Of a stretch of 64,000 nucleotides of DNA, positions 269-60,216 are shown piece by piece; position 1 is the first letter of the stretch, and each line of letters begins with the position of its first letter. Both the position numbers and the translations under genes were made by a program. Location of the stretch: NCBI GenBank assembly GCA_004764695.1, contig SMSO01000033.1, forward strand, positions 1,007,001 through 1,071,000, in the 5' to 3' direction. The notes beneath the pieces are model-generated. The model was not told the DNA's origin. It worked only from the letters and a program-made list of their open reading frames with translations, and did not search any database. Source of the stretch: Schizochytrium sp. TIO01 (lineage: Eukaryota > Sar > Bigyra > Thraustochytrida > Thraustochytriidae).

Positions 269-2262
269 AATTTTTTAAATTAATTTTTTTATTTAAATTT
301 CAATAGGCCTCCGCCTCCCCTCATAGTAACCTCGTATCAGCCTCTGCGCAGCACCGGTTTCCTTTTTGCCACAAAACTACGATCGTTCTGTAGGACTCGG
401 GTAGAGACACATAGGCGAATCTCCCTGTCTCCTTCTTTCTGTTTCCTGGATACAGACAAACAAACAAACAAACAAACAGACAGTCATACATATTATCCAT
501 ATATAGGTGTATATAGAGAGATCGATTGATTGATTAATTGATCGAAGAAAGGCCCTGTGTCTCTTGCTCTCTTGCTCCCCTTCTCTTCCGGCCGTCGCGA
601 AGGCCCGTTCCGCCTGCCTCAATCTGGCTCCAGCGAGGCCTCTGAGCGCCTTCCCCGCTGCCTTCTGAGCTGCCTTGGCAGCTTTGGCCTTCTCGCGTCC
701 TTCTATTGCGGAGCTGAGTGTCAGCGTGCCCTCCATCCTGTGTTTTTATTGACAGGCACGGAAGGACGTCTTTGATGATTTATGTCTTGTTGCGGAGTAG
801 TAGTTAGGTATCTGGCACTAGCACGCATCCAATCTATTTTGAGACTAATTTTTCAAATTGAAACATCACTGGAGGAACAGAAGGACGATGGGTCCGGTAA
901 TGATTGCACGTGATGATACAAATATTGTAGTCTGTCAGAGTACAGGTGATCACATTAAACGATCAAGAGTAGAGAGGATAGATGAGACGGTGTTAGGGGA
1001 GTCGAAAGAATGGGGCTTTTGGAATGACTGTCTCTTTTTTTCCCCTTTCTCGAATGGCTCTCTCACCAGGCGTAGCTTTAGCATTATGTGACCCTTATTA
1101 GAAATCTCTCTTTGGGCCCAGTGGGGGGCACTCACATAAGTCCTCCTTTTCGGATAATTTTCTCCTCTGTCTCCACTGGCGCTTCGATCGATTTTCCTCT
1201 CTGTGTGTGGCCTCGTTATTTCCTCTGAGACTCACTGCGGAGGCGCCTGTTTGGGTTTGTATGTGCTGCGGCCTGTTCTGCGCCGCAAAGAGAGCGCCAA
1301 AGAGAGAGCGAAAGAGAAGAGCGAATCCAAATCATTAACGCCGCGACTCGCTCAGCTCTCGCTTCTCAGACTTCGCAGGTACGTTTACACAGCGCTGCGC
1401 TCGGCACGAGATGGCCTCCGTCCTGGATGGAGGACAGGCCGGGCTACATACAATGCAAAAGGCTCCATCGCGGAGCCCGCACCTCGATTCGCAAGGCCAT
1501 GAAGCGTCGCCAGTTAGTTGCCTTGCTGTCTGCTTGTCTGGCCATCAATCTTTCTTTGATCAGCTCTGTTGAGTGTCAGATTGGTTGATTGATCTATTCT
1601 TTTCTTTGTTTGGTTTGCTTGTTTCTGTTGGAGTATTCTCTGCTTCTTAGCACAATGTCATAGTGTTGTTGAATAAACTGTGGAATATGCGATATGTGTC
1701 ATATGCTGTACAAAATGCCAGGCCGATCTGCTTGTGACCTCAGCGACGTGGAGTACGAATCTCGAGGGGGCTGTGTGGATTATCAGAGCTCGCAGAGATG
1801 GAGGAGTACTGCCACCGCGATGGAGACAACAGCCTGGCGCAACGGAGTAGAGGATGAGAAGAAATGGATAACTCTTGGAATCATTCTTCTCGAATAAGTA
1901 AAGAATCAATGAATTGGTAGATCAACGAGTTGACCATCGGTTAGGTTCGAGGCCATGGTTGAGGACCCTGTAGATCTACCTGTGAAACAGTTGATCAGAA
2001 TGTGCGGGACGATGGTTGTCTGTAGAGGCGTCACAGACAGACAAGACAGAGAAACATAACAAGACGACACGTAAAGGACAAATAGACAAAAGAGCTGAGA
2101 TACCTTGTCCCCTGGATGGATCTTAACCCTTTTCTGAAGAATCTGGCTATGTTTTGTTTGCAATTACATGAAAAGAAATAACTAACGCTCGTGTAAAAAC
2201 ATGTATTGCCATGGATTGAATAATAATTATTGCCATTCACAGTTTAACACCCTTTTAGCAAA
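269..2262. other. Intergenic region upstream of VDAC, with short repeats
   Basis: No gene is supported here. It holds an AT-rich island (about 265-303), a short AAAC run (about 459-478) and a GATT-type run (about 521-547). A minus-strand frame at 377-736 has an Ala/Lys/Arg-rich half (about 550-736) that could be an exon or coiled-coil fragment, but it runs into simple-repeat translation and no clean donor site is visible. The last 30 bases before the VDAC ATG look like a short intron end, with TTAAC followed by CTTTTAG at 2252-2258, so the VDAC 5' leader may be spliced. No donor was identified. Confidence 0.4.
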
Positions 2263-3105
2263 ATGGCCCCTTCCAAGTTCAAGGATGTCGGCGGCGCTGC
2301 CAACGACCTCATCAACAACGACTACTGCTTCGACCGCAAGTTCAAGCTCAAGACCAAGAGCGTCAACGGCCTCGTCCTCACCACCGAGGGTACCCTCAAG
2401 CCCAAGGGTGTCGCCGGTAAGCTCTCCGCCAGCTTCAGCCCCTTCGATGGCATCACCATGAAGAAGGTCTGCGTGACCACCGAGGGCCGCTTCCAGACCG
2501 AGGCCTCCCTCGACAACGCCCTCGAGGGCGTCACCTTCACCGTCAAGGCTGAGGACGGTGCCAACAAGCCCCCCGCTGGTGAGCTCTGCGTGGACTACAA
2601 GTCTGCCAACGCCACCGTCAACACTAGCGTTGACGTCTGTGACGTGAACGGCCCCACCCTCTACGGTGCCTCAACCGTCGCCTACGAGAACTTCCTCGTT
2701 GGTGGTGAGGTTCGCTACAACACCGGCTTCGACTCCACCGACGGCTCCCCCTCCGTCGTTGACTACAACGCCGCTGTTGCCTACCACGGTGGTGACTTCG
2801 TTGCTTCCCTCTCTACCAAGAAGAAGCTCTCCAACGTTACCTTCAACCTCCACCAGCGTTACTCCAAGGATGTTGAGCTCGCCACCACCTACAACCACTC
2901 CTCCAAGCTCCTCACCGTCGGTGGTATCTACAAGCTCGATGCCGCCACCCTCCTCCAGGGTAAGATCAACTCCAACGGTATCGCCTCCGCTAACGCCATC
3001 CAGGCTATCAGCCCCGGTGTCAAGCTCATCTCCTCCGTCGAGGTCGACGCCAAGAACTTCGCCGGCGACTCCCACAAGTTCGGTCTCCAGCTCATCCTCG
3101 GCTAA
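2263..3105 (+). CDS. Voltage-dependent anion channel (mitochondrial porin, VDAC)
   Basis: A 280-residue protein, the usual length of VDAC, the beta-barrel of the mitochondrial outer membrane that passes ATP, ADP and other small anions. The sequence shows an N-terminal helix-like stretch (MAPSKFKDVGGAANDLI), then alternating hydrophobic and polar strands throughout. A eukaryotic-porin-like signature lies at about residues 223-236 (YKLDAATLLQGKIN), and the protein ends in a strand (KFGLQLILG) that fits the outer-membrane beta-signal. No transmembrane helix or cleavable presequence is seen, as expected for VDAC. The ATG has A at -3 and G at +4. Codon use is extreme (nearly all CTC, ATC, AAC, AAG, GCC, with GGT for Gly), unlike every other gene here, which suggests very high expression. 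It converges on the LRR gene downstream. Confidence 0.95.
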   Translation: MAPSKFKDVGGAANDLINNDYCFDRKFKLKTKSVNGLVLTTEGTLKPKGVAGKLSASFSPFDGITMKKVCVTTEGRFQTEASLDNALEGVTFTVKAEDGANKPPAGELCVDYKSANATVNTSVDVCDVNGPTLYGASTVAYENFLVGGEVRYNTGFDSTDGSPSVVDYNAAVAYHGGDFVASLSTKKKLSNVTFNLHQRYSKDVELATTYNHSSKLLTVGGIYKLDAATLLQGKINSNGIASANAIQAISPGVKLISSVEVDAKNFAGDSHKFGLQLILG

Positions 3106-3688
3106 GTGCAAAGATACACGTTCTTTTTTATTTTCAATTGGACAAAGTGTTTTGATATTTTCCTTCTTGAACCTTTCTTACTATTAGAGCAAATCCCCCT
3201 CTTGCCCTTGTTCTATTCTGAACCTTGCTCTTCTTGTCCTCAAATCGTTTAGGTACGCATTTTCTCCCAGAGGAGCAGCAAAAACCTATAACGCTCTGTA
3301 TTCTGAACCCCCTCAATGTTTAGTTCTTATACTCTCACATAAGTCCGCACTGCAAAATGGGGAGTATGTGTTACGAAGATGAAATGGTGTATTACATCGA
3401 TGCGAAAGAATTAGTTGTGCTGAGACTTTTGATTTTGCGAAGGATTTAAAAACACCTATCTCTTAAAATGAAATAAACATGTACTTTCAAATATAACATT
3501 TATAAGATTTCAATAATGACAACCTGATCTGAGCATTGGCAAATTGCAAAAGAGCAAAGATCAAGTTTGGGCGTGCAGATTGTGAAGAAATGCTTACACA
3601 GAAGTTGCAGAAAGAACGTTCAAGAAATACCTACACACTTAAACCAATGCCAATGCAAAGGGGTCACTGACCGTAAATTGTCTTGCAA
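3106..3688. other. Convergent intergenic region between VDAC and LRR genes
   Basis: 583 bases between two convergent genes, presumably holding both 3' untranslated regions. A T-rich stretch (TTCTTTTTTATTTTC, about 3120-3136) follows the VDAC stop. No clear AATAAA was found close to either stop. Nothing else is recognised. Confidence 0.5.
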
Positions 3689-6073
3689 CTACTTTTCACG
3701 CCGCTCACGTTCTAGTTGCTTTTGTTGCGAGCGACCAAGCATCACTAAAATCGACTGGTTTTTACAGTCTTCAAGCATGCCAACCTCTTGAAGCCACAAC
3801 ATACAAGCTGTGTACACGGCAACCTCTGTACTCGACATCGCCATGGCCATTTTTGTCAAGGTCTTCTCTGAAGAGACAGACCCCATCATCGAGTCAAGCT
3901 GTCCTACCAAGAAATCGTCCTCTTCGTTCTCTTCCATTATACCACTTGGGCGGGATAGTACACCTCGAGAACCACCACCAGTGTTATTACTGCCGACAGA
4001 TAAGGTACGCCCGCTATTACCCAAACTCCTGCGACTCGAAGAAGAGCGAGCGCCGCCTCGGAAGGTATCATTTTTCATGGCAGTGAGCATGTTCAACTTG
4101 TCTACATCACGAAGAAACATATCACCCAATTGAGTTTTGCGAGCTTCAATTGGAATACTAGCAAGCTGGCTTAAAACATATTGAGCATCAGACCCGAGTG
4201 TACCCTCTGCGACGGTAAGACTCGTTAGCACTTCGTTAACTTTGAGCATCTCCAAGAGTCGAGCCGCCCCTTCATCGCAAACTCCGTGTGTGGACAGAGG
4301 CGGCAATACCGGTCCACCAACCGTGAGTCGCTCAACACTTGTGTTTACCTCGAGGCCTTCTGCTAGAGCAAAACATCCCTCGACACCTAATGCGCACGAA
4401 CGAAGATCTAAAGCACGCAAGGTACATCCCGGGTCGGCAAGGGCTGCAGAGAGTATCATAACTCCGTCTGCATCAATCTGCGTATAGCTTAGATCAATGT
4501 CCTCTACAGGACCGTCTCCACGAAACATGGCAGCTAGGTCCTCACAGCACGCGCTTGTGATAGGATTACCACTAAGATCGATGATAAGAATTTCCCGTGC
4601 ATAGTCTACAATGCCAGCAGCCAAGGTGCTTGCCGAAGCATCATCGAGGCCACATGCACGAAGCACAAGCTCTTGAGTTTGTTCAAGTCCACCCGATGAC
4701 AGTAAAACTTCCAAAGTCTCCTCCGACAGATCATTTCCGCTCAAGTCCAACTTGACAACAGATGTAGATGGAAGCACATTAGAGAGCATTGCAATTTGGG
4801 AAGTAGAAAGCATGCACATCCGCAGGGTCAATTCACGAAGTGCAGGCATGTTCTCAAGCGCATGCACAAACTGTTTAAATACTCGGTCCAGCGGCGTCCG
4901 GCTCAAATTGAGAGACTCAAGCACCTCACCAGCACCTTCACTGAGAGCATGCATCATCATTTCTAATCCATCATCACCCCGAGCACCTGAAATGTCAAGC
5001 GCGACTGGTCCGTTTTCACCAGCATCTGCAAGAACCGTAGCGAGACCTGTAAGGGCAACTTCCGAGGCGTCGGAGAAACGCACATACCGCGCTTCACCCT
5101 CACCAATAGCTGCACGAAGAATGTCAATGTCCTTGGATGTTTTAATCACAACATCAGCAGACGACTCGATGTGTCTCTTTGCACGTGCCTCACTGGACCG
5201 AGCAGAGACATGAATGCTACGTCGAGCCCCAGAGCTCCGCTGCCGAGACCAATCTTTCTTATTCAAAGACTTGCCTTTACTAGATGAATATTCCGCGAGA
5301 TCCTCAGCAGACTCACCTTCTGTGCGTAGCATTCCCTTCGACCTTAGACTCTCCCGGCGGGAAGCATCATTTGCACGACTTTTGTTAATGGATCGCTGGC
5401 TCGATCGTTGAGCAGAGCGACGCTTGACTGACATTGACAACCGACGAAGTACATTGTTTGATGCAGTACTAGTCTCCTCCTCCTCCGGCTCATTCGACTG
5501 TGTTAAGTCGCGCGTTGTTGGTGCATCGGACGGAAAGTCTTCAATGCTTTTTATCGACACGCGTTTGGACGATGCAGTTGTAATGGATCGAGTAGCAGCT
5601 GAGGTGCGGGACGAGCTTGACGAAGAAGCTGATGACGATGCTCTTGACATAGAAAGCCTTGGCGAAGGCGCCATTGTTGGGTCTTCGCAGTCCTGCTCAG
5701 TGGATCTTAAGCTCTGTCGCATAGAGCGTCTGGAAGCTCGCTTTGAATGACGTTTTGTGCTCGATGGCTTGGGGTTATCAAGAGGCAAATCAAACTCTAA
5801 CGCGTCAGACTCCAACGAGTCAAGCTCAAGCTGGACATCACGATGAGGATTCTCACAAAAAATTTCAGAGCTGGTTTGACCATCTTCGGCTGCCGCAGCT
5901 GCTGCGAAGCCAGCCATTTCATCGACAGGTCTTGATGGACGACGCTGCGTGAAGATGCGTGGCATCTTCACCATGTTCATCATGCCAGAGACAAGGCTTC
6001 CTGAACGAGAGGCTTTTGCAGAACTCTCGCGCGGCTCACTCTCGCCAGGCGTTTTGCCTTGACGCCTCCTCAT
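3689..6073 (-). CDS. Leucine-rich repeat (RNI-like) protein with basic Ser-rich N-terminus
   Basis: 794 residues from the ATG at 6071-6073. The frame stays open 12 codons further upstream, to a TTG at 6109, but the ATG has A at -3 and is the better start. Residues 1-310 are low complexity: Arg/Ser-rich, a short poly-Ala, a poly-Ser block and several basic RxxS-type sites, so probably disordered and phosphorylated. Residues about 320-630 hold roughly ten LRRs of the ribonuclease-inhibitor type, with units such as VVKLDLSGNDLSEETLEVLL and LRALDLRSCALGVEGCFALA. Such domains bind protein partners. The tail (about 650-794) is Ser/Gly-rich and then helical, ending in a charged segment. There is no signal peptide, membrane segment, NACHT or kinase domain, so it is probably an intracellular scaffold. 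The partner and pathway are unknown. Confidence 0.85.
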   Translation of the reverse strand: MRRRQGKTPGESEPRESSAKASRSGSLVSGMMNMVKMPRIFTQRRPSRPVDEMAGFAAAAAAEDGQTSSEIFCENPHRDVQLELDSLESDALEFDLPLDNPKPSSTKRHSKRASRRSMRQSLRSTEQDCEDPTMAPSPRLSMSRASSSASSSSSSRTSAATRSITTASSKRVSIKSIEDFPSDAPTTRDLTQSNEPEEEETSTASNNVLRRLSMSVKRRSAQRSSQRSINKSRANDASRRESLRSKGMLRTEGESAEDLAEYSSSKGKSLNKKDWSRQRSSGARRSIHVSARSSEARAKRHIESSADVVIKTSKDIDILRAAIGEGEARYVRFSDASEVALTGLATVLADAGENGPVALDISGARGDDGLEMMMHALSEGAGEVLESLNLSRTPLDRVFKQFVHALENMPALRELTLRMCMLSTSQIAMLSNVLPSTSVVKLDLSGNDLSEETLEVLLSSGGLEQTQELVLRACGLDDASASTLAAGIVDYAREILIIDLSGNPITSACCEDLAAMFRGDGPVEDIDLSYTQIDADGVMILSAALADPGCTLRALDLRSCALGVEGCFALAEGLEVNTSVERLTVGGPVLPPLSTHGVCDEGAARLLEMLKVNEVLTSLTVAEGTLGSDAQYVLSQLASIPIEARKTQLGDMFLRDVDKLNMLTAMKNDTFRGGARSSSSRRSLGNSGRTLSVGSNNTGGGSRGVLSRPSGIMEENEEDDFLVGQLDSMMGSVSSEKTLTKMAMAMSSTEVAVYTACMLWLQEVGMLEDCKNQSILVMLGRSQQKQLERERREK

Positions 6074-7571
6074 TGTGTATTTATTTCTTTGCTCAAAATG
6101 GACTGTCAACTGTCGTTTATTTGCCCTGGCCCCGAGCCTGCCGTGTTTAAAGGCTGGATGGATACGACCAAAGCTACAGAAAGTTTTGAGACAGGCGTGT
6201 ATTTAGCAATTCTCTGAATGGAAGTACTAGATCTGGAGCTTCAAAACGTCGTAGTAGCGGTACTCTGCAAAAGTATACAGCGCAGAAGCTACGCTTTTCG
6301 ACTAGAGATTACAAATGTATGTTGCGTTCGACGAGACCCTTGCCCTCTTCAAGAACAGTTTACAGCAGTTCTACCGTACTAATCGGGCTTGTAAAGTCTT
6401 CGCGGTCCTTTAGAATGATTTGTTGCGATTTGCGACGATCCTGATGGAGTTTAATGATCAGCTAGAGAATAATATTCAGTCCTTTGGCTTGAACTCGCAG
6501 AGGTCAAGAGAGTTTATCACAAGAGAGTTTGTAAAAATGAACGCCTGCCTTCGCGTAAGGTGGTTCGAGGCAAAGAATACGCTGGTATGTTGCTTGTCTG
6601 TAGCCGTGGTTTCTTTGTTTCTTTCTAGAGCTGATTCAACTTGCTCCTTTCCTTGATCAATACTCACTTACCCGGACAGCGCCACCCAAAGCTCATGCAC
6701 TACGTTGCACACTCACGAAACCCGTTCAGAGGCCACGCACGCCCCAAGACACGTCTGTGAACCCAGGCGCCTGGCCCGCGGTGATCTCTGCAGCAAAGCA
6801 AGGGGCCGCGAGGGAGTCGAGATTGGGCCTCGTTTGCTCAAAGAAGGAGAAAGAAGAAGAGGATTGCTCGTTCACTTTCACTCTATAAATCCATCGACAA
6901 ACATAAACAGCTTGAAATAATAAGAGGGCAGAACATAAAGGAAGTTGCCACTGACTGCATTGATAAGGAAGGAGAATGCTAGTTTTACCAGCACTAATGC
7001 ATCATAGCCAAAATACACAAAGACCGTGCACGCGCCGCAATAAATACTACTCTAGAGTATGCTTTTGTTAGGTTTGTGATGAATTGATTGACTTGATTCA
7101 TTAGGCCCACATAAGTACTACTGGTAATGTGTGCGTGTGAAGTGTTTTTTATTTTATTTTAAACAGGTTTCCAAAACACTGTTAGTGAGTAAGTAGATAG
7201 AGGGTGGGTACATAATTAAGCATAAGGAAGTGCTACAGAAATAAGGAGGAATGGGTGCACGTGCAGAACCTGAAGAATTCATAAACTAGCAGAGCAATAG
7301 TAACAGTAAGATCACGTGTTGGAATGACAACCTCAGTCGTTGAAGAAGAAGATAGTGACTAACTCTTCACTCCACTCAAAGACCAAAGTGAATGTATGCG
7401 GTAGCCTCCGGTTGGACAAATTGCAGACTTTGGGCTCTCCTGACACATCGAGGAAAACTCTCTGGTACACGAAGACTGGAAATGCATTTCTTTCTGCGAA
7501 TATATATTGGGGTTCTCAACTGTTCAACCTGCTTTGCAAGCAGAGGCACGTTTTGTCAAATACTGGGATAG

Positions 7572-8248: not shown

Positions 8249-11200
8249 TCAAGAATACTCGTAAGGAGGAATGTTAAGCCTTGCAGGAACGAATGTTCGC
8301 CTTGCAGGTTGTCTTGCAGCTGCCGCAGCAGCAGATGACGCTGACTCAAATGCATCATCATCATACTCGTCGTCGACATCATTGGTATTGCCATAGTTTT
8401 CATAATGAGCGGCATGGTTCGTGAAATTATAATTCTGATTGTGCTCTACCTCTGCATCCTGCATGAGTGACTGTTTAGGAGAATGATGGCCATTACCCAG
8501 ATTATACCGATTAGGTGAGACTAAGCCCATACCTGTAGAAGTTAAACGGCTATGCTCCGAAGGATTAACTTGCAAAAGGTGGTGCACCTCATCCAATGGT
8601 GGAATTGCATCAGCTGGACCTCGAAAAACAATTCGATGCATCTGGTTTAAACAAAGGTGAGCCCAGTTATTTGTTTCACTGGATCCTGCCCGCGCTCGAA
8701 GCTCCACGCCCTTACGACGCAACCAAAGCTCCAAGTAGTTTTCAAAGAGTTCTGAAGGAGGGAATGTGCGCAAAACCAAACTCATCAATAGCCACCCTCT
8801 CTGTCGTGACTTTGCAGAAGGGTTATCGGTGAGCTGTTTCAAAATCTGCAGTAGAATTTCATCACGTAGCTCTGTTACTGCAAGACCCACTTGCAGAATC
8901 TCCTGTGCTAGTGATGCTGGGTATGAGTACTCTCGATCACCCATGTAGCCCAAGAGAGCTCGAAATACTTTTACAGCAAGAGAGGTAGCTGGTGTCGAGG
9001 GCAAGCGAGACAGAGAGGTTGGAATTGGCGTTGAAGAATGAGCAAGCATCCCAGACGCAAGACCAGGAGCCACAGCTCCAGTGTTTGCAGCGAATTCTGA
9101 TGGACTCTTCAGTGCTGGAAAAAGCTCCAGTCGGTGTTTTTCGCGCGTGGCTTCTTGCTCGAAAAACCGGGATTTGATTGCAAGAGTCACGTCCACAACT
9201 GTATCTTCATCGCCGCGCTCAACAGCAGCATTCAAGCGCAACCGTTCCAGTTGCGCTGGAGGCATTGACAGGAGTCTGCGCATTTCATCCGTCCTAGGCA
9301 GATCAATATGTTCACGCCGAGCCTGCTCAAGTAAAGCCCGCATTGCAGTAACATCCACTGTTTCAACAGCACGCTCAGCTTGTGTGAAAGCTGTATGCAA
9401 GCGATCACGAAGCTCCATTGCAGTCGAAGCAGTTCGTGGATTATACTTGAGGCGCCGAGCCTCCTCAAGAGTTGAATCTAGTCCTTGCAAGTCAGCCCGT
9501 TTGAAGCATTGGTCAAGACGCTCGTCAACCATCATTAAGCGGTCAAGGAGTTGTCGGGCCTTATTCACACGGGAAAGCACATGTAAATCAGGGCTGGCAC
9601 TCAATCGAAGGGTCTCGGCCTCTTCTAGAGCCTGCTCAAGAGCATCTACGTCGCGATGTTTCGTTGCTTCCTGCAGACGAACGAGAACACTTTTAATGAC
9701 GTTATGAAGGTGAGTTTCACGACGAAGCAAATTTAGCTCGTCTGCTGCAGCCTCGTGAATACGCATCTCAGCACAATCACGCAACAAATTATCTAAATCT
9801 TGCCAACTCCCATCCAAAAGAGCTTCGCGGCATCGCAATATTACACTTGACGAGAATTGCAGCGATGTAAGCTCGTCTGTTCGAGTAGGAACTTTCTTTG
9901 CAGTAGTAATTGCAGCCTCCAAAGCACCTGTCTTAACAGTAGCAACATCAACGAACCCTCCAAGAAACTTTGCATGTCCACTTCCAAGAGCTCGGACCAA
10001 GCTTTGCACTGCTTCGCGGTGCTGAATTTCATCCAGAAGCAGTGCCAACTCTCGTCGTGCCTCGGGGTGACACCATAATAGGCTAAACGAACGTGCATCC
10101 CGATCGCTGGACATAACTGATGCTCCTCCTTGGCTTCCTGGTGAAAGTGGCGATTGGGAGCGCCTCCGATTAAGTCCAGCAGGCGCGGTACTAACCATGG
10201 ATACCCAACCTTCATCTTCTTGCACAGGAATATTGCCTTCAGGAACATTGGCAACTGCACTACGCAGAACCTGAATTGCAGTTTCCCACATTTGAGGAGC
10301 GCGAGATATTTCATCATAATGGGTCAAAGCTCCGAAAGCGGGGGAGTCCATTAAAATTTGGCGGAGACGAAGAACCACACGACAAGAATGAACTAAAGCT
10401 CGAGTCTCGTCTGTTATGCGTGCAAGGGATTCCGCCTTAGCCATTGCGCGCTCAAGGCTACTAACGTTTGAGCTGGTAATACTAACAGCACCCACGCGCC
10501 CACTGACGGCACCTGAGCGAAGTGCTGCCTTCAATGCGCGGCCTGCCAATTTGTTTTCTACTTCGTGATGCAATAGTTCGATTTCTGAACCAGCTACTGG
10601 AAGCCTATGGAAAAGTACAGCTCCTTCAGATCTGCCATTGTTGCTTTGGCCCAATGATGAAGCATAAGATTGTGCTTCAGCCAGAACAACGGATGCCGTT
10701 GTATAATCTTCATTTCGAACAGCCATGCGCAGCTGACGCAACAAGCTCGCAGTTTTGCGCAGTGTAATCGACTCTTCAGACCGACAACGTGCACGCGATG
10801 CACGCCCTAGAGCTTTATCAAGAAAACTTACATCAAGTCGGTCGATGCGCAAATAGCCAAATTGCCCTGGGGCTTGGCCTGACGAAAGTGCCTGACGAAG
10901 CTCACTTACAGTTTCTAAGGTTTCAATCTCATCACGTGCTCGTTCCACCTCAGGCTGAATGAGTGCCAGTGCTGCACGCCACTGCCCAGACTCGCCACTT
11001 TGCGTGGAGATAGGGGCCTCGCGACTGCACACGCGATCGCGAATACGATCGATCGCAGTAATGCACGACGATGCGTGATCCCAAGCTGTTTCAAGGCAGG
11101 CCGCACGAAGATCGCGCACAAAAAATGCGAGTTTGTACAATGCTCGAGAATACACAGTATGGCACTTTGATTCCTGCGTTTTTGCTATCGCACTACTTAG

Positions 11201-14200
11201 TTTATCGACATTAATTCTCGATGGCAGGTATCGAGAGTAGCGACGTGCTTTCGCAGGCTTCTTCGTTGCCTTCCCCCCTGATTCGGACCTTCCTTTAGAA
11301 GATAAGCTCTTGGAACGATACTGGGACTGGTCTCGAGCAGAAGCAATTTTACCCTCACGACCATCGTGAGTTTTCACTTCCTCCTCCCCAGGAACAGTAC
11401 TAGATTTGCTCGCCTCTACACTTTCGTCATCTTCGTCATTGCGATCATCATTGCTGCTTGCCGCCATTTCTTCATCTCCGTGATGGACTTGCAGGCCAAA
11501 AGCATTGATGCCATCTTCCTCCTCCTGGCCTTCATCAAAACCATCGAGAGAGTCGCCTCCCTCTTCCTCGCTTATCTCTTCATCATCACTGAATTCCTCA
11601 CGGCTCGACGACCACACGGTTTCAGGCCCAGCCCACGCGAGTGCATCGGTCAGAAGCCGTGAAGAATCCTGATCTTCAAGTTCGTGCTTAATAAGCAGAA
11701 TTTCCCGGCGTGCAACTTCAGGAAGGCCATCTTCACCATCATGTTCTTCTTCGCAGGTTCGTAGTGCATCGCGGACAAGCGGGCAATCAACATGGCCATC
11801 CCCACCACCTTCGTCTGGACTAGCAAGAATACCATTTCGAATTTGCCGTACAGTATGCGCAGCCAACATTAACTGTTGTGCATCTGGTGTATTAACACCG
11901 ACTTCTAAAGCGCGTGCAATGGCACGGTTCAGCTGTGCTACAGAGACGTGTTGTGTACTTAGCTCTCCTGGGACACCAACGATACCTCCAGTTGAAAGAG
12001 CATGAGAGAGATCGTCAACCACGACACGACGTGTTGATTCTTCACTCGCAAGTGACCTCTCCGCAGTGAAGACTCTCACTAATGCATTCAGGTCCTTGTA
12101 TAGATCCCCAGAGGTTGAGTGCTCTGGCGTATCTTCGCGCCAATGTTTTATAATATCATAAGTAGCTTGCCAGTCGTCAGAAAGTATGGCTCTGCGCATG
12201 TCCAGCAAATATTTCGCCTCGCGCAAATATGCTAGCATTTTGCGAGACGGTCGCTGTGCTGACCCTGCAGCTTCTACAGCACCCTGGAGGGCTGCAACCT
12301 GAAGAGACGACGTGGAAATCGAGCCAACGCGACCTTGTAATGCTCCATCGCTCATTGCTTCCAAAAGCATACGTTGGACCATGCGGTCCTCGTGGCGCCC
12401 ACGAATCTCTTCATATTCTGTGCGAATGTCATCCTTCACAAGGTCAATTGATGAGTCGTGCTCACTTAAGTAAGCCAAGGTTCCAGCAGCTGCCTGTGCG
12501 CGATATTCATCCTCCTGAATACGAAAGAAATTACTCATAGCTGTAAGTTTGGCGCTCACAGAGGCCCATTGATCAGAATTAGAAATACGGAAGGCATCAC
12601 GAAGCTCAGCCAAATGTTCGCATAAATCGCAAAGTTTTATAACTTCGGGGTCATACTCGCCTCCGATTTGCTTTTGTGCGTTTTTGAGGGTTTCCCAGAG
12701 AACGCGGGCGCTCACCACAGATTTTGGGGATGCTTCAATTTTCTTCTCATCTCCTCCTACGATTGTGCCTGTCTTAACAGCCTCTGCAAGGGCTGTGACG
12801 GTGTCATGGTTAACCAACAGGCAGCGCGCATGGTACACCTGATCCTTTGCTGATGACATGCGAGCGATACACGAGTTGTCAAGTGCTTCATTTAGAATGT
12901 AGCGAAGGGCTTCGTAGTCACGCTTGAGAAGTGCTGTTCTCATTTGCAATATAAGATCAGCACCATTGACTAAATCCTGTGCTTCACGGGACTTTGGACC
13001 ACCAAGAGCAGAGTTTACAGCACTCACTGCATCGCGCAGGCCAGTGACATCGATATCAGCGATGCGAAGAGGGTGGCCACCATGGCCATTCTGAACCGCA
13101 TTTTGAATTGTTGTACGTATCCGGAAATCATTGACGTGGTCATGTGCAAGTTCGAGCTCTTTACGTGTGACAGCCGGGATAGCCACTTCGCCTAGCGTAT
13201 CAAATGAAGGAAGTTTAGCTAAAGCTGCAGCTATTATCTCAACTTCATCACCCTCCCGACCTCCATGTTCAAAACCTTCTCTAACGAGCAAAAGTATGGA
13301 GGCCAATGAGGCTAAATCTTTTGAGTAGGAGCTTAAATGTTTGCGAGCCCGGTCTGCAAAGGCAATAGCTTGTGTGAGCGATTTTGTATCCAAATTTGAG
13401 ATATTTACAACTCCAGGAGTTCCTTGCACAGAGCCATGTTCAAGTGCGTGCAGGGTTTGTGAAGTGACGGCACGCTCGCGGCACTCATCAACTAGACGCT
13501 GGAACTCACCACTCGCCTCGTCTGCACAACCAGCAAAGGTATCCGGCGGAGCGCCACCTTGAACGCTGACACCAAGATTCTTTTCTAAAAGTTGAGGCAT
13601 TTTCGACCACCCATCGGTTAAAAGTGACTTGCGTAACTGTGCCACAAGCTTTGCGGTCTTTTCAAGCTTTTTGGCTCGCTCGGTTTTACATACCAGAGTA
13701 TGAACACAGTCAAGTGCAGCATCTAAACGTTCGACGTTGCAGGAACTAGGATCGGTGTCGCCGATTTTCCCATCTACCTGGCCTTGGCTGAGTGCCGCAC
13801 AAAGTTCTCGAACAATTTTAATGTCGTCCACATGGTTCTGAATTAACTTGAGTTCATCGTTTGCGACTGATGCTATTTTAGATGCATGTGCCTTATCCAA
13901 AGCAACTTGAACAGCCCCAAGCCATTGCACAGCGTCTGGAGAACCATCAGGACGCGCTGCACCGTCTGCATCTGCAACACATGCCCGCACGTCACGTAGT
14001 CGTTTTGCTGTTTCGAAGAGCTGTTTAGACTCTGAAGATTTGCACTGCATTTTCTTCACCTTTTCTATAGCGTCATTCAGGACAACAACAGAAAGCTGGT
14101 CAAGATCGAGAGCACCGATGGAGCCTCCGACAGCACCCTGGCGGATTGCTGATGTTAAAGACGCAACAATCTTGCGGTTCTCGATTTCATCGCTGATCAG

Positions 14201-17200
14201 AGTCACCTCTTGTTCGACACTATCGACAAGACTAAACCCGTGTTGCGCCAATATTGTCTCAGGAGAGTATCTTTTGAGAATTGCTTCTGCAGCAGTCCAG
14301 TCAGGCCCCGCGAGAAGTGCTTCACGCAAAGAAACCGCTACCTTGGCACTTTCAAGGAGTTGAGCCGCACTTGTGGTCTTGGATTCATGCTCACTGTACT
14401 TCTCTGTTACTTTGATAAGGTTTCCAAGTTTTACAGAAGCTAGATCAATCGCACCAATGCGACCCTTTGGTTGGCCTTGAAGAAGCGCTTCAGCTAGATC
14501 ATGGCACATGGACTCGTCTTCATACTTATCGCGCATCAATTCTAGCTCTTTCTGTGCTGGCTCAACATCGCGGAGCTTTGTCTCGTCAATACCGACATCA
14601 TGATCCTCAACACGAAGGAAACTTTGACGCACCGCATCATCCACGAGCGGGCCGAGTTGAATGAATCTCTTTTCAGCCAGTGCTGCTCGTGCTGCGCGCA
14701 CAATTTTACTAGCTGCAAAAAGATGCTGAGCTCGACCCGATTCACATCGAAGCTTTTGTGCAAGGGCCAAAGCTTCATCAAGCACATGAAAGGTAATTGT
14801 GTCAACACGAAGGTCTTCGAGGGTGCCCGACGGCCCACCTGACCGGAGAGCATGCTCCAGCGAATGAAGAATACGCCTATTATTCATTTCTTTTGTAGCT
14901 GTCTTCACCTCATCTTCAGCAAGTGGAAGAATGCGCTTAAATCTAGCCTCGTCAAGCGCATGTTCAACCATGTCCCAATCTTCAGATACAAGACCGCGAC
15001 GAATGCGAAGGACAAGGTTTGCGTTTTCCAAAAGTTCCTTGGCTTCTTTCGTATGGCATCCAAGCTCGTTTGCATCATTTACATCTGCCTGTAGAGACTC
15101 AACATCAATGGATGACAGATCAAGCTCTCCAATAGGTCCACTGGGAGCACCAGAGCTCAAAGCTTTCGTAAGCTCTGCAATAATAGTTCGATTATTAAGC
15201 TCATCCTGGATAAGCTCAACTTCAATTTCCGTGGCATCAAAGCTCTCCTTTTGCTCTGCACCCGCGAGCAGGATTGACTCAACCTGGTCCCAGTTATCGT
15301 CAATAATTGCGCTCCGCAAATCGATAAGTTCTTGAATTGCAAAGAAGGCCTCCTGAGCAAGTGTCGATTGGGGCTGTGATCCGGATGCTATCGCGTCTAG
15401 TTTACTTTGAGCATCTTTTAGCGCTGATTCTAAAGGTTTGGTGTCAATTTTATTTACCTTAAGGTGGCCAACCGTTCCACTTACAGCTCCCGACGCCCTA
15501 ACTGCTTTTTGAAGGATATGGATGCACTCCTTTTCAGTCAGATCATGCAATACAAGATTGAGCTCGTCTCGGCACTGATCTGGAGCATCATGTTTTTTCA
15601 CGAGCTTTTGTGCTTCGCGAACGTTCTCTAGTATGCTGAAATCATTAGCATTTTTCAAGAGATCGACCCGAATTGAGCGCATGTATTGTACGAGAATGAG
15701 AAGGGCTGCACTACGTGCAGAGGGTCCGACACCGTTGAGGATCTTTTTTACCCAGTCAATCACTTCATCAAGATCCCGTGTAGACTTTGACGATGAAACC
15801 TTAAGCTTGCCGACCTTTCCAGAGATTGCTGGTTTACATAATGCCTCTGAAGCTTTGGATTCGAGAAGGTGAGCATAATATATCTTCCAAATGAGCTCTT
15901 GCTCCGACTTGACTGCCTCAAGATACATTTTCGCATACATATCGTTCGGGTCAAGTCCCTCATTCAAAGCAATCTGTGCACCATCAGTCTCCAAGAGAGG
16001 CGCCATTGCCTCAAAGTGAAAGTCGCGTGCTGCTTCGCGAAGCCGGGAGTGTTTTTCTGCGCTCCTGATTACGTTCTTGGCAACTGCTGCCGACGAGCCA
16101 AGCATTTTTGCATCTTCGATGTCTTCCCGCAGACGTGTTGAGGAAGCCTGTGACACGTCTGGGTTGGTCGCGTCTCCCGCTACAGCATCATGTTGCACAG
16201 ATGAGCTAATTTCCGCAACGACTGTGTAGCATGCAACTTCAGCCTTGCAAAGGTCAAGCTCTTGGCGAGGAAGATGAAAACGTTCTAGTTCACCATTCTC
16301 TTCTAATTGGTTTGCACGAGCAAGTAAAGTTTCAGAAGATGGCCAATCACATTTTTTCATACTGTCGCGGAGTGCCAGAATGAGTTCTGCATAATCTGCA
16401 AGAGCCTTTCCGCGTGGAGTGAGATCATCCTGCATATTTGCAGCTTTTGTCCACGCTTTGCGAAGAGAATCTGAACTTATCTTCGATCGATCTAGATTTC
16501 CTGGTTCGCCCCGAGGCCCTCCCTTCTCAAGACCAGCTAGAAGGGCTTCACTAACCTTTTCTTCACGCACAACTTGTTCCAATCTATCTTTAGCTTCACG
16601 AAGCTCTTCCTCACAGAACGGAGCTCCGTGCTCGTTTTGCAGAGCTTCTACCCTTTTGATAGCTTCTACTAAGTCGGGCTTGAAAGACGCATGTGTTGCG
16701 CTACGAAGTTCTTTCTTAGCTTGAATAAGATTCCTCACGCCCTGGATGCGACGATCGAAGTTTTTAATAACCGGTGCCAGCTCAGGATATTTTTCTGCTA
16801 TTTGTAGACGCTCACATGCAGACAGAGTATCTTCGATTTCCTCATAACGATCTGCAGCAGCAGCAGGTTGAGCTTGAAGCACGGCTTCAAGGTCTTCTAC
16901 TTGAGCACAAAGTGTGAGCTCCTTCTCGATTTCCGCCATCGTTTCTCGCGCTTCCCGAAGTTCCCTGTGCAAATTAAACGGAGGTTTGACTCTCTCTTCA
17001 GCATCAAACACTGCCTCGGAAATGTCCATAAGCTCACGAGACTGAATAGCTGCGTTAAGAGATTGCTGGATTTCACGGAAGTTGGCTACACGCGCGCGCG
17101 CAAGAAATCCTCTACCAATTCTAGTTAATACTCTTCCAGCAACGGCACGAGCAGCTTCACGTTTGGCTTCCAAGTATAAATGCTCTGGAGCACGGTACAG

Positions 17201-19858
17201 TACCATTGTTCTACCAATGCGGCAGTCTGTTAGGTCTGCCTTCTTGCCATCGCGAGTGCTTTCATCTTGGTGTGCTTGAAGGTCATCGAGTAAAGCCTTG
17301 CATCGATCGATTGAGGATTTGCTCATAAGAGTTCCTTCGGTCTTACTAATGAATTGTTCGCTTGCCAGAACTCGATAACGACGATAAAACATTTCGTGCA
17401 AGCGTCTGAAAGGGAAACCTTGCTTACGGATCTCGATGGCCTCAAAGACACCGGAGTAGCGCAGCTGCTCAAGACACAGGAATGGGTCGAATCTGTCAGG
17501 TGCCTTTTCATTATTCGGTTTGATGCAGCGTACATAATGAGGATTAGTGTCATTGAGAGCCCTCATGAGTTCCTCAAGTTGCTTGCAGAAAAAGCTAGCT
17601 TGGGTCTTATGGCGGCGCTTAGTTGTAGAGACAGTCCCATCGTCCTCAATGGTGTTACTGGTGAAGAGATATTCTCCCATCAGCCGATTAGAGGAGCCCA
17701 GAGCTAGGCTTAGTAAGTTTTCTCGGAGATCATCCTTATTTTTCTCTAGAAAACCCTCTGCGCTATATACTACAAGACCAGCGTAATGCTCCACGGCGAA
17801 CGAAAGCTCACGCTTCGCACGAATTTTGGGTCCAGATTGAAAGCGGGAATGTCCCGTGTTCCCGCCGTGAAATTGAACAATTTTGCTATTGTATGAAGCA
17901 TCTGAGCCTCGAGGAAGAACACACTCTTCATCAAGAAGGACCAAGAGGCCACGTGGTCGATCTTCGAGAAGCGAAAGCACATCAGCATTATCTTTGAATT
18001 GAGGAGTGATAAAGTCAATGCCCTCATCCTCATAGACATGTTGCTCCGTCTTGAAGGTATGTTGATTAAAATGCTGCTGGAGTTTCTCATTTGCAAAATT
18101 AATGCAAAGTTGCTCAAAAGAATTATGTTCAAAAATCTCAAATCCAAAAATATCGAGCGCACCAATCATGCGAACAGAGGTACTGCTGCTGCTGTTGTTG
18201 TTGTTGTTCTTGTTGTTGTTACTGCCTACATTGTTTTTGGACTGTTTCGCTTCCTCTCCGGCAAGCGTAACATTGACCCGTTTTACAAGCCAATCGAATA
18301 ATCGTCCGTAGATTTCTCGTGCGAGAGCTGCGCATGATTCCTCCGCAGCCTGGGCATTGAGAGGGCTTGCTATGACTTGGCCTCCCATTGTACGGATGCG
18401 ATTTTGCACATTATTCAAAAGCTCTTTGCGTGTGAAGCCGAGAAGATCGCAAACTGCTGTGATAGCAGACTCGCTAGTGGGAAGATGAACTTCGCAGGCA
18501 TCATCTGCTGACCCGCCAGTTGGTGTTCTAAACTCAAGATTACCTAGCCACATTACACCCGCCACAACTCGCAGAATGTCCGTTTGTTCATCATCTGAGA
18601 AGCCAAGTTCATCGAGTGCTTCGGTCGTCTCTGCAAATGCCTCTTCATCGTCAACCCCAAGAATATCTGTACAGCCCCCTACATGAAGGTATTTAATTAA
18701 GCTGCATGCTTTGGGCAGGCGTAGAACATCCCTTTGTTTCTCTGAAGCACCCTTGACAAGCTGATAAAAGATGTGAAAGTTTCGCTCGCCTGCGATTTGT
18801 GTGGACACTCGACTTTTCTCTAACAAATAGTTGACAATATGACCACTTGCAATTCGATCGAGCGCATCAAATTGGACAGCTGTCCATTTACCAAAGCGAC
18901 TCGAATTTCCATTACGAAGAGTTTTGGCGTTACCGAATGCCTCCAAAATAGGATTGGTTGCAAGAAGTTTGTTCTCCAGCCCGATGGTTGACCCAGCTAC
19001 ATCGGCAAGGTACTGAAGGCACTTTTTCGTGGCTTCTGTTTTGCCAGCTCCACTCTCACCGCTAATGATGATGCTTTGACTGGTCCTATCGTCGCGGAGA
19101 CCTCTGTATGCGTTGTCTGAAATCTCAAAAAAATGCGGTGGGACATCGTCACCTATGGCTCGTTCACGATAGAGTGCAAACTGCTCTGCTGTGTATAGCT
19201 TGTCGATCCACTTAAATGGGTTTACGCTGATGAGGATGCTACCAACATTTGTGAAATAGTCATCACGTTCTGTTCTCAAGCGCAGGTTATGCAGTACAGT
19301 AGCCTCGTTGATTACTTGCATTTTAACCATATCATCTGTGTCCTTGTTAATTCTATCGATGTTCAGCACTGGTCCCAATACGTCCTTCTCTGGATCTTCC
19401 ACTGTAATTTCGCGACCATCCAACGTCTTAAATTTCCTCCCGTTTTTCTCGTTGCGTTGCGCTACTGCGAAGCAAAATATTTCGTCCCGCACCCATGCCC
19501 ATTCACCTTGGCCCGCAAGAACCTCGGAACCACTTTTGCGACGCGTTTCGCGCAGAGCAAAATCAGTTGGTGTGTCCCAGGTAGTCTTTCGCGTCAAAGA
19601 ATTGAAGTAGTAAGTGGCGCCTTCCTTCGTTGTGTGCTCTGTCCATGCGGCCTCGATCGCATCGGATGACGGACCTTGATCAAGCCCATCTTCGCGCAAT
19701 AATGGAGCGCTCCCACGGCTCAATGTGAGTGATCCACGTCGGATGCGCTCTCGAACTTGCTCTGTGGTCAACGGGCTGGATGGTGATGGTGGTGACGGCG
19801 GACTATCATCGCCAATGCTTCGCCGCCGCGAAGCTGTACGTGGCACTTTTGTTGGCAT
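8249..19858 (-). CDS. Giant unconventional myosin: WW + motor + IQ + tandem modules + MyTH4
   Basis: A single 3869-codon exon. The ATG at 19856-19858 has A at -3 and an in-frame TAG lies upstream with no Met between. Residues 1-65 are Ser/Pro/Arg-rich. A WW domain spans about 70-97 (W72, YYF 83-85, W94). The motor runs about 155-890: P-loop GESGAGKT at 267-274, switch I NGNSSRFGKW at 316-325, switch II DIFGFE at 569-574, and an actin-binding or relay region with NPHYVRCIKPN and a converter RKQGFPFRR. One IQ-like segment (IGRGFLARARV) follows at about 915-927. From about 1100 to 3363 come about 18 tandem modules, then shorter helical repeats to about 3560, MyTH4 (about 3627-3762) and an acidic/Ala tail. 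It should be an actin-based ATPase motor; WW binds proline-rich partners and MyTH4 often binds microtubules. The class is not assigned. The length is close to twice that of ordinary long myosins. Confidence 0.93.
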   Translation of the reverse strand: MPTKVPRTASRRRSIGDDSPPSPPSPSSPLTTEQVRERIRRGSLTLSRGSAPLLREDGLDQGPSSDAIEAAWTEHTTKEGATYYFNSLTRKTTWDTPTDFALRETRRKSGSEVLAGQGEWAWVRDEIFCFAVAQRNEKNGRKFKTLDGREITVEDPEKDVLGPVLNIDRINKDTDDMVKMQVINEATVLHNLRLRTERDDYFTNVGSILISVNPFKWIDKLYTAEQFALYRERAIGDDVPPHFFEISDNAYRGLRDDRTSQSIIISGESGAGKTEATKKCLQYLADVAGSTIGLENKLLATNPILEAFGNAKTLRNGNSSRFGKWTAVQFDALDRIASGHIVNYLLEKSRVSTQIAGERNFHIFYQLVKGASEKQRDVLRLPKACSLIKYLHVGGCTDILGVDDEEAFAETTEALDELGFSDDEQTDILRVVAGVMWLGNLEFRTPTGGSADDACEVHLPTSESAITAVCDLLGFTRKELLNNVQNRIRTMGGQVIASPLNAQAAEESCAALAREIYGRLFDWLVKRVNVTLAGEEAKQSKNNVGSNNNKNNNNNSSSSTSVRMIGALDIFGFEIFEHNSFEQLCINFANEKLQQHFNQHTFKTEQHVYEDEGIDFITPQFKDNADVLSLLEDRPRGLLVLLDEECVLPRGSDASYNSKIVQFHGGNTGHSRFQSGPKIRAKRELSFAVEHYAGLVVYSAEGFLEKNKDDLRENLLSLALGSSNRLMGEYLFTSNTIEDDGTVSTTKRRHKTQASFFCKQLEELMRALNDTNPHYVRCIKPNNEKAPDRFDPFLCLEQLRYSGVFEAIEIRKQGFPFRRLHEMFYRRYRVLASEQFISKTEGTLMSKSSIDRCKALLDDLQAHQDESTRDGKKADLTDCRIGRTMVLYRAPEHLYLEAKREAARAVAGRVLTRIGRGFLARARVANFREIQQSLNAAIQSRELMDISEAVFDAEERVKPPFNLHRELREARETMAEIEKELTLCAQVEDLEAVLQAQPAAAADRYEEIEDTLSACERLQIAEKYPELAPVIKNFDRRIQGVRNLIQAKKELRSATHASFKPDLVEAIKRVEALQNEHGAPFCEEELREAKDRLEQVVREEKVSEALLAGLEKGGPRGEPGNLDRSKISSDSLRKAWTKAANMQDDLTPRGKALADYAELILALRDSMKKCDWPSSETLLARANQLEENGELERFHLPRQELDLCKAEVACYTVVAEISSSVQHDAVAGDATNPDVSQASSTRLREDIEDAKMLGSSAAVAKNVIRSAEKHSRLREAARDFHFEAMAPLLETDGAQIALNEGLDPNDMYAKMYLEAVKSEQELIWKIYYAHLLESKASEALCKPAISGKVGKLKVSSSKSTRDLDEVIDWVKKILNGVGPSARSAALLILVQYMRSIRVDLLKNANDFSILENVREAQKLVKKHDAPDQCRDELNLVLHDLTEKECIHILQKAVRASGAVSGTVGHLKVNKIDTKPLESALKDAQSKLDAIASGSQPQSTLAQEAFFAIQELIDLRSAIIDDNWDQVESILLAGAEQKESFDATEIEVELIQDELNNRTIIAELTKALSSGAPSGPIGELDLSSIDVESLQADVNDANELGCHTKEAKELLENANLVLRIRRGLVSEDWDMVEHALDEARFKRILPLAEDEVKTATKEMNNRRILHSLEHALRSGGPSGTLEDLRVDTITFHVLDEALALAQKLRCESGRAQHLFAASKIVRAARAALAEKRFIQLGPLVDDAVRQSFLRVEDHDVGIDETKLRDVEPAQKELELMRDKYEDESMCHDLAEALLQGQPKGRIGAIDLASVKLGNLIKVTEKYSEHESKTTSAAQLLESAKVAVSLREALLAGPDWTAAEAILKRYSPETILAQHGFSLVDSVEQEVTLISDEIENRKIVASLTSAIRQGAVGGSIGALDLDQLSVVVLNDAIEKVKKMQCKSSESKQLFETAKRLRDVRACVADADGAARPDGSPDAVQWLGAVQVALDKAHASKIASVANDELKLIQNHVDDIKIVRELCAALSQGQVDGKIGDTDPSSCNVERLDAALDCVHTLVCKTERAKKLEKTAKLVAQLRKSLLTDGWSKMPQLLEKNLGVSVQGGAPPDTFAGCADEASGEFQRLVDECRERAVTSQTLHALEHGSVQGTPGVVNISNLDTKSLTQAIAFADRARKHLSSYSKDLASLASILLLVREGFEHGGREGDEVEIIAAALAKLPSFDTLGEVAIPAVTRKELELAHDHVNDFRIRTTIQNAVQNGHGGHPLRIADIDVTGLRDAVSAVNSALGGPKSREAQDLVNGADLILQMRTALLKRDYEALRYILNEALDNSCIARMSSAKDQVYHARCLLVNHDTVTALAEAVKTGTIVGGDEKKIEASPKSVVSARVLWETLKNAQKQIGGEYDPEVIKLCDLCEHLAELRDAFRISNSDQWASVSAKLTAMSNFFRIQEDEYRAQAAAGTLAYLSEHDSSIDLVKDDIRTEYEEIRGRHEDRMVQRMLLEAMSDGALQGRVGSISTSSLQVAALQGAVEAAGSAQRPSRKMLAYLREAKYLLDMRRAILSDDWQATYDIIKHWREDTPEHSTSGDLYKDLNALVRVFTAERSLASEESTRRVVVDDLSHALSTGGIVGVPGELSTQHVSVAQLNRAIARALEVGVNTPDAQQLMLAAHTVRQIRNGILASPDEGGGDGHVDCPLVRDALRTCEEEHDGEDGLPEVARREILLIKHELEDQDSSRLLTDALAWAGPETVWSSSREEFSDDEEISEEEGGDSLDGFDEGQEEEDGINAFGLQVHHGDEEMAASSNDDRNDEDDESVEASKSSTVPGEEEVKTHDGREGKIASARDQSQYRSKSLSSKGRSESGGKATKKPAKARRYSRYLPSRINVDKLSSAIAKTQESKCHTVYSRALYKLAFFVRDLRAACLETAWDHASSCITAIDRIRDRVCSREAPISTQSGESGQWRAALALIQPEVERARDEIETLETVSELRQALSSGQAPGQFGYLRIDRLDVSFLDKALGRASRARCRSEESITLRKTASLLRQLRMAVRNEDYTTASVVLAEAQSYASSLGQSNNGRSEGAVLFHRLPVAGSEIELLHHEVENKLAGRALKAALRSGAVSGRVGAVSITSSNVSSLERAMAKAESLARITDETRALVHSCRVVLRLRQILMDSPAFGALTHYDEISRAPQMWETAIQVLRSAVANVPEGNIPVQEDEGWVSMVSTAPAGLNRRRSQSPLSPGSQGGASVMSSDRDARSFSLLWCHPEARRELALLLDEIQHREAVQSLVRALGSGHAKFLGGFVDVATVKTGALEAAITTAKKVPTRTDELTSLQFSSSVILRCREALLDGSWQDLDNLLRDCAEMRIHEAAADELNLLRRETHLHNVIKSVLVRLQEATKHRDVDALEQALEEAETLRLSASPDLHVLSRVNKARQLLDRLMMVDERLDQCFKRADLQGLDSTLEEARRLKYNPRTASTAMELRDRLHTAFTQAERAVETVDVTAMRALLEQARREHIDLPRTDEMRRLLSMPPAQLERLRLNAAVERGDEDTVVDVTLAIKSRFFEQEATREKHRLELFPALKSPSEFAANTGAVAPGLASGMLAHSSTPIPTSLSRLPSTPATSLAVKVFRALLGYMGDREYSYPASLAQEILQVGLAVTELRDEILLQILKQLTDNPSAKSRQRGWLLMSLVLRTFPPSELFENYLELWLRRKGVELRARAGSSETNNWAHLCLNQMHRIVFRGPADAIPPLDEVHHLLQVNPSEHSRLTSTGMGLVSPNRYNLGNGHHSPKQSLMQDAEVEHNQNYNFTNHAAHYENYGNTNDVDDEYDDDAFESASSAAAAAARQPARRTFVPARLNIPPYEYS
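8570..8980 (-). other. MyTH4 domain of the giant myosin
   Basis: Residues about 3627-3762 carry MyTH4 hallmarks: a start like KVFRALLGYMGD, the core LRDEILLQILKQLTDNP, then RGWLLMSLVLRTFPPS and a closing PPLDEVHHLL. In metazoan, amoebozoan and other MyTH4 myosins this domain is usually followed by FERM. Here only about 100 residues of low-complexity Asn/Asp/Ala sequence follow and no FERM is visible. Confidence 0.85.
9768..16560 (-). repeat. About 18 tandem protein modules in the myosin tail (unassigned family)
   Basis: Successive units share one pattern: a helix ending in Ala-Leu-x-Ser/x-Gly (for example ELTKALSSGAPSG), then G-x-[ILV]-G-x-[LIV] (such as GPIGELDLSS), then a helix starting Val/Leu-x-x-Leu-x-x-Ala-[IL] (LDEALALAQKL), a Cys-x-Ser/Thr pair, and a final helix LRxALxxxxW with an acidic cap. 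Units are spaced about 100-150 residues apart and I count 18 by eye. They are too diverged at DNA level to be a recent expansion. I know no family with this signature and assign no function; an elongated helical lever or cargo-binding rod is inference. Confidence 0.75.
17180..19400 (-). other. Myosin motor domain of the giant myosin
   Basis: This part encodes the ATPase head. All nucleotide-binding motifs are intact (P-loop at 19037-19060, DIFGFE at 18137-18154), so an active motor is expected. A low-complexity Asn/Ser insert (about residues 536-558, around 18180-18250) sits just before the strand leading into switch II, where most myosins have a short loop. Motor limits are estimated by eye. 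Confidence 0.9.
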
Positions 19859-57046: not shown

Positions 57047-57570
57047 TTAGTTTTGTCTTCTATAAACCAGTACTGCAAGTTGTACTGCGAGATAATCATT
57101 TGGGCCATTAATCTCTTCCTTTTGGATTGTATTCTTTAATGCTTGACAATCTATATATACCTGTATTTCATTGATGTAAATGTCCATGTCTGCTAAAAGT
57201 TGTCTAATGAATTCTGCTATGCGAACACCTGCAACTGCAGCAACTAGTTCTGGTTCGTGAGTATTTCTTGCAACAGTAGATTTTTTGTTGTTTTTCATCC
57301 AACAGCACTATCATTGATCATAATAACATATCCTGAAACACTGCGGCGAACTTTGTCATGTTTCTTGCTGAAAGAAGCATCAGTATAGACATTCAAAATA
57401 AATTGTTTCTCTGAATCCACGCCTTTGAGTGTTAGAACTTTGTCCTTTCTGGCCTTGACATAACAGAATGCATGTTTAGGAACCTGTATATGATCTGCTC
57501 CATTCTTTTGACCATGACATACAAGTTGATGTAAGGTGTATGCCATATCAGGTTGAGTTTCAGTAAATAC
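57047..57570 (-). pseudogene. copia RNase H, frameshifted
   Basis: The frame 57546-57295 reads the RT end (DMAYTLHQLVCHG) and the RNase H start (VYTDASF..., RRSVSGYV). The second frame, 57298-57047, continues with KKSTVARNTHEPELVAAVAG and the closing helix. The break falls at GGATGAAAA near 57295-57300, where one base change of length would restore the Ty1/copia pattern. RNase H would remove the RNA template during reverse transcription. Now non-functional. Confidence 0.85.
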
Positions 57571-60160: not shown

Positions 60161-60216
60161 AGTGGCAGAATATTGACTGTGGATGGCCTTACAGGAATAA
60201 GAATTGGAATGTCAAA

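Follow-up and report, generated by a model that had tools for sequence, protein, structure and literature searches.

A giant myosin gene

We analysed a 64,000-nucleotide stretch of the Schizochytrium sp. TIO01 genome (contig SMSO01000033.1, positions 1,007,001 to 1,071,000 of the forward strand; hereafter the window), in which one open reading frame (ORF) encodes a giant myosin, the window protein. Its coding frame and domains are as follows, in window coordinates.

8249..19858, minus strand: giant myosin ORF, 3869 amino acids from Met to stop, stop-free inside (3884 codons from stop to stop)
19568..19648, minus strand: WW domain, residues 71-97 (Pfam PF00397, 30.2 bits against a cut-off of 26.9)
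17261..19339, minus strand: myosin motor, residues 174-866 (Pfam PF00063 Myosin_head, 702.8 bits, above cut-off)
17096..17128, minus strand: single degenerate IQ-like motif LTRIGRGFLAR, residues 911-921 (by eye)
8582..8908, minus strand: MyTH4 domain, residues 3651-3759 (Pfam PF00784, 85.2 bits against a cut-off of 27)

A motif search showed that the motor is intact, with the P-loop GESGAGKT at residue 267, switch I NGNSSRFG at 316 and switch II DIFGFE at 569. With these three motifs in its motor, the window protein is a member of the myosin superfamily. An earlier reading made from the sequence alone (the sequence-only reading) had described the WW, motor and MyTH4 domains as ordinary; all three score above their Pfam cut-offs and the motor motifs are kept. 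Residues 911-921 resemble the IQ consensus in a degenerate form; Pfam IQ had no match in the whole window protein. Motor and MyTH4 are separated by ~2780 residues, and nothing in this interval (900-3650) scored above any Pfam cut-off.

The motor also carries an Asn/Ser-rich low-complexity insert (SNNNKNNNNNSSSS) a little upstream of DIFGFE. Under the TEDS rule, Thr, Glu, Asp or Ser is expected at one position of the motor. In the window motor this position (residue 494, 16 residues before a DALAK-like motif) is Gln. The motif pattern was found in six other frames (loci are numbered with the prefix L): the residue is Gln in L024 and Gly in L013, and L010, L011, L012 and L016 obey the rule.

The 18-module array

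We built a profile from ten segments anchored on a Gly motif of the tail and iterated it to convergence. It placed 18 modules in register between the motor and MyTH4, and also picked up two weaker stretches behind the array.

9704..16585, minus strand: array of 18 modules, residues 1092-3385, ~2300 residues (2294; iterated profile)
11723..16585, minus strand: modules 1-14, residues 1092-2712 (iterated profile)
10943..11698, minus strand: module 15, residues 2721-2972, split by an insert (well supported from 2879 on; first helix by position only)
11225..11626, minus strand: charged insert in module 15, residues 2745-2878, 134 residues (acidic, then basic)
9704..10942, minus strand: modules 16-18, residues 2973-3385 (iterated profile)

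The module segments as cut span 94-178 residues and are mostly ~113 residues long. When each module was left out of the profile in turn, 18 of 18 outscored the best of 200 shuffles of their own sequence; even the weakest, module 12, reached 13.4 bits compared to 4.8 for its best shuffle. The count of about 18 tail copies in the sequence-only reading thus held. The motif pattern it gave for the repeat was right in outline, and its strict strings recur in part: ALxSG is found in 5 of the 18 modules, LRxAL in 6, Cys followed closely by Ser or Thr in 7, and any Trp in 12. In a profile of 16 modules, conservation is strongest at Arg 72, Leu 41, Ala 18, Glu 106, Gly 22 and Gly 26.

Pairwise identity between modules had a median of 21% (range 12-38%; 120 pairs among 16 modules, modules 15 and 17 being omitted from the alignment because of their inserts). 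Tandem Repeats Finder listed no tandem array inside the ORF at the DNA level. From the low identity and the lack of a DNA-level repeat we conclude that the amplification is old, and the same two results rule out a recent tandem duplication.

Two modules carry inserts. The charged insert of module 15 contains 29 Asp/Glu and 3 Lys/Arg in its first 75 residues, compared to 7 Asp/Glu and 15 Lys/Arg in the remainder. The first helix of this module probably lies at residues 2723-2741, a placement that is unproven (its score is equalled or exceeded by 39 of 1000 shuffles). Module 17 holds a Ser/Pro-rich loop of roughly 70 residues.

Predicted fold of the module

We modelled neighbouring modules with AlphaFold2, using alignments of 5 and 9 rows; the models cover 4 of the 18 modules (pLDDT, predicted local distance difference test; pTM, predicted template modelling score).

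13847..15214, minus strand: modules 5-8, residues 1549-2004 (mean pLDDT 79.7, pTM 0.61)
14519..15214, minus strand: modules 5 and 6 with the start of module 7, residues 1549-1780 (mean pLDDT 84.7, pTM 0.74)

Both models agree on four helices per module, the longest helix being 35 residues, with breaks. The module is predicted to consist of two helical hairpins, one of them with a Gly-rich loop that carries a tiny beta hairpin, and a long helix is predicted across every modelled module boundary. These models predict a repeating all-helical fold in the four modules. A continuous coiled coil is ruled out there by both models, with helices of 35 residues at most and breaks between them. Foldseek gave no significant match for the models in the PDB or among viral models, and their VIA-align neighbours were mixed helical proteins.

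Searches for relatives of the module

No family in Pfam, NCBIfam or the PDB sequences claims the module. We scanned 16 of the 18 modules singly (15 and 17 omitted) and observed, among named helical repeats, only TPR_17 in one module (E 0.063); the whole protein gave no match of this kind. The best NCBIfam match of these 16 modules was E 0.012, in one member. CBS had no match in the whole protein nor in the 16 scanned modules, which rules out a CBS repeat tail. Nine PDB sequences matched at E 10 or better, led by a de novo designed protein (E 0.0015), which we took to reflect composition. The Pfam comparison that the sequence-only reading had proposed thus left the module without a named family, as that reading had it, and the four modelled modules are predicted to repeat a fold instead of forming one plain coiled coil. 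Neither outcome that would have refuted that reading, a significant match to a known family or a plain continuous coiled coil, was observed in these searches and models.

We also searched the genome of the same organism (64.1 Mb, 37 contigs). The 2294-residue array as query matched itself only. A module consensus found 19 places, of which 17 are within the window gene; the two outside places were weak (C30:5203254, E 0.086; C6:854820, E 0.24), and the frames there showed no such array by eye, as far as they were printed. This consensus query is of limited sensitivity, because it missed a diverged module in locus L013 (described below). With default filters, the module profile matched only the window protein and L017 (E 0.011) among 25 frames of the fetched loci, window protein included. 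Modules 5-9 as query found no relative in viral and prokaryote collections.

Myosins of the same genome

Myosin_head gave 67 matches in the genome, which merged by position into 47 myosin places. We fetched 16 loci for comparison and built a motor tree from 18 of the 47 places. The window motor fell in a seven-row branch (support 95/94) together with L012, L013, L015, L016, L018 and L019. All six relatives have MyTH4, and none matches FERM or a PTB-type domain at E 0.1. Pfam WW was found at E < 0.001 in five of the six (above cut-off in L012 and L018; below it in L013, L016 and L019); L015 had no Pfam WW match, though its N terminus is WW-like by eye. The other five MyTH4 myosins (L009, L010, L011, L014 and L017) formed a separate branch (100/100). 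FERM was above cut-off in L009, L011 and L017 and just below it in L010, and L014 had a weak PTB-type match only. WW had no match in any of these five.

MyTH4 matched the genome 14 times: 12 matches are in myosin frames (window protein included), one is in L021 and one in L020. The L021 frame (1595-3934, plus strand) has three WW stretches, MyTH4, an RA-like domain and FERM with no motor match, and looks like a relative of the myosin tail end that lacks the motor. L020 (1314-5906, plus strand) combines leucine-rich repeats and MyTH4 in one frame, also with no motor match. The 47 places are a large repertoire for 64 Mb, and one 3002-codon frame (C33:4383771-4385930) has a diverged motor.

The array interrupts a shared tail

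We took the tail, from motor to MyTH4, of each of five paralogues (L012, L015, L016, L018 and L019) and built a profile from them with the window protein left out. This tail profile matched the window protein twice, once before and once behind the array.

16811..17191, minus strand: neck-proximal helical part, residues 890-1016 (profile positions 1-129, E 0.0013)
8879..9706, minus strand: pre-MyTH4 helical tail, residues 3385-3660 (profile positions 35-332, E 9.2e-19)

The best match of the reversed window protein was E 0.093. The tail profile also matched L013 twice, at residues 1039-1191 and 1487-1667 (E 4e-13 and 2e-13). The ordinary tail is therefore split in both the window protein and L013, and the 18 modules fill the split of the window protein. 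The split of L013 contains one diverged module (E 0.011 at 6.8 bits when the whole protein is searched), which includes the Gly loop (GAPSGGNDNIDIS). In a 300-residue cut, chosen after that match, this module scored 10.8 bits, and none of 2000 shuffles of the cut exceeded 6.9. By its sequence, L013 is an apparent intermediate between the short tail and the array.

Probable kinship of modules and hairpins

The tails of the MyTH4-FERM branch are helical hairpins of ~49 residues. A hairpin profile trained on paralogues, again leaving out the window protein, found such hairpins behind the array.

9317..9676, minus strand: plain ~49-residue hairpins, residues 3395-3514 (hairpin profile, E 8.5e-7, 0.0025 and 0.00021)

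In 100 tail shuffles this profile gave 0.07 matches on average and 1 at most. We observed that a profile-profile comparison of hairpin and module scored 20.3-21.0 and 17.0-17.5, one match per module half, compared to a maximum of 14.3 for 200 column permutations and 8.8 for the reversed profile. These scores suggest that the hairpin and the module share descent.

Weak module-like signals were also present in other tails. Of 500 shuffles, none scored as high as the true sequence in L009, L017 and L015, compared to 6 in L010 and L019 and 18-102 in L011, L012, L014, L016 and L018. These signals may reflect a common descent of the hairpins.

Other features of the window and the genome

The window contains four further features outside the myosin gene.

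2263-3105, plus strand: mitochondrial-type porin (Porin_3, E 2.4e-41)
3689-6109, minus strand: leucine-rich repeat protein, 806 amino acids
25660-26979, minus strand: protein kinase with a poly-Gln stretch (Pkinase, E 5.5e-48)
57432-61682, minus strand: probable broken Copia-like retroelement (one frame matches RVT_2, E 8.3e-19)

Further short frames lie near the RVT_2 frame, two of them with no Pfam match. Elsewhere in the genome (C4:608161-617209), two adjoining frames encode an omega-3 PfaA-type polyunsaturated fatty acid synthase, the second being above cut-off with its in-frame neighbours. Synthases of this type are associated with thraustochytrids; taken with the long uninterrupted frames, this one points to a thraustochytrid-like stramenopile as host.

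Interpretation

Overall, our data suggest that the window protein is a WW-motor-MyTH4 myosin whose short helical tail was probably lengthened by old tandem amplification into an alpha-solenoid arm. One unit of ~113 residues would have been amplified in tandem long ago within the short helical tail, and the resulting 18 modules, or 36 hairpins, would form one long stacked alpha-solenoid (~2300 residues) that separates MyTH4 from the motor. Known solenoids measure 9-10 Å per hairpin; if stacked like them, the arm would perhaps be 30-40 nm long. Such a solenoid could act as a long spacer and a multivalent binding surface, keeping the cargo end with its MyTH4 at a distance from the motor on actin. 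The single IQ-like motif is degenerate, and the modelled modules show no long coiled coil; the stroke would thus likely come from a short lever, with the array serving as tether or scaffold and not as the lever.

Several observations weigh against this account. The fold is drawn from models of 4 of the 18 modules, and a pTM of 0.61 fixes neither the module-to-module angle nor whether the arm is a rod or a coil. As to origin, the hairpin hidden Markov model finds one weak stretch only within the array (3127-3145, E 0.028), and hhalign, run on the module profile, detects no repeat inside it. The two best of 200 heptad-block permutations reach 26.0 and 21.0; because these permutations score as high as the real comparison, we regard the kinship of hairpin and module as suggestive only. 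In the motor tree, the pairing of the window protein with L013 is supported at 54/17 only, and an alternative tree that groups the window motor with the five MyTH4-FERM myosins is not rejected in the approximately unbiased (AU) test (p-AU 0.129). Finally, the protein is class-IV-like by architecture alone, its motor having been compared only with paralogues of its own genome.

The same features can be read in other ways. The array could be a lever arm or a rod that bears force: a stiff solenoid that extends the neck and so lengthens the power stroke. It does start ~170 residues past the IQ-like motif, and a long helix is predicted over each modelled module boundary. We consider this reading improbable: the IQ-like motif is followed by a separate helical stretch before module 1 begins, the 134-residue charged insert of module 15 and the ~70-residue Ser/Pro-rich loop of module 17 would break the stiffness, and the pTM for modules 5-8 is 0.61. 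Because of the single IQ-like motif, the charged insert and the loop, we prefer a jointed tether or scaffold to a rigid lever. A pure binding scaffold, with a putative partner for each module (e.g. actin, light chains or adaptors) and length secondary, seems rather unlikely to us. Arg, Leu, Ala, Glu, Gly and an aromatic residue recur from module to module and the rest has drifted to the median identity given above, but the conserved positions could as well be fold positions, and the partners are putative.

We give a similarly low probability to the modules being a diverged known solenoid family (TPR, HEAT or nucleoporin-like) whose sequence signal has faded. That the gene is an annotation artefact, with two neighbouring genes or a read-through frame taken for one protein, appears highly improbable. 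The gene model is known from genome DNA alone; against an artefact stand the 3884 codons with no stop, a module signal over 1092-3385, differences in guanine-cytosine content by codon position that are present in motor, modules and MyTH4 alike, and paralogues that have both tail flanks in one short frame.

Beyond the lengthened tail itself, the array may represent a new alpha-solenoid family, born in a myosin tail from a hairpin ancestral to several myosins of this genome and amplified 18-fold into a monomeric arm of tens of nanometres; we put this forward tentatively. Myosins are known to be lengthened by IQ repeats, single alpha-helices and coiled coils, and, if true, this would be a myosin gaining reach by a folded solenoid instead. 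With a folded helical-repeat arm of this size, its shorter relatives and an apparent intermediate all in one genome, the lengthening of a motor's tail could be followed one copy at a time. The module profile would also be a search tool for unassigned protist myosin tails.

Comparison with known myosins

All myosin IV proteins have been described with WW and MyTH4, in two arrangements with the WW either N- or C-terminal to the motor (PMC3942036). Class 4 is listed among six myosin classes common to most stramenopiles (PMC5583752). The window protein has the same WW, motor and MyTH4, with the WW N-terminal, but its motor and MyTH4 are set apart by an additional ~2300 residues, a tandem array of helical modules that distinguishes it from myosin IV.

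Within the genome, the six relatives of the motor branch resemble the window protein in their motors (38-43% identical to the window motor by BLAST; the best over the tree columns is L015, with 46%) and in the homologous tail that flanks the array. They are unlike it in having 249-624 residues from motor to MyTH4 and no array, with one diverged module in L013. The five MyTH4-FERM myosins share with it the ~49-residue hairpins, as at 3395-3514, whereas their motors form a separate branch, they have FERM or PTB-type matches and no WW, and their hairpins lack the Gly loop (by eye).

Very long tails of repeated domains have been described before. Stramenopile class XXIX myosins carry up to 18 CBS domains, and the domains of many myosin tail regions were still undefined in that 2007 survey (PMC2375034). 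Like the window protein, class XXIX has a very long tail of many copies of one domain; its tail comprises CBS, PB1 and a transmembrane segment, compared to an all-helical repeat with no CBS match here. In the literature collection searched, part of it judged by title, we found no paper on a helical-repeat or alpha-solenoid myosin tail like that of the window protein.

The sequence-only reading had held that a repeating lever or rod of this size would be a new myosin architecture. This is not supported as worded, because WW with MyTH4 is already published as myosin IV, six shorter relatives with a homologous flanking tail exist in the genome, and class XXIX has long repeat tails. These data suggest that the window protein is a WW-MyTH4 myosin of a known kind, new in its amplified helical arm.
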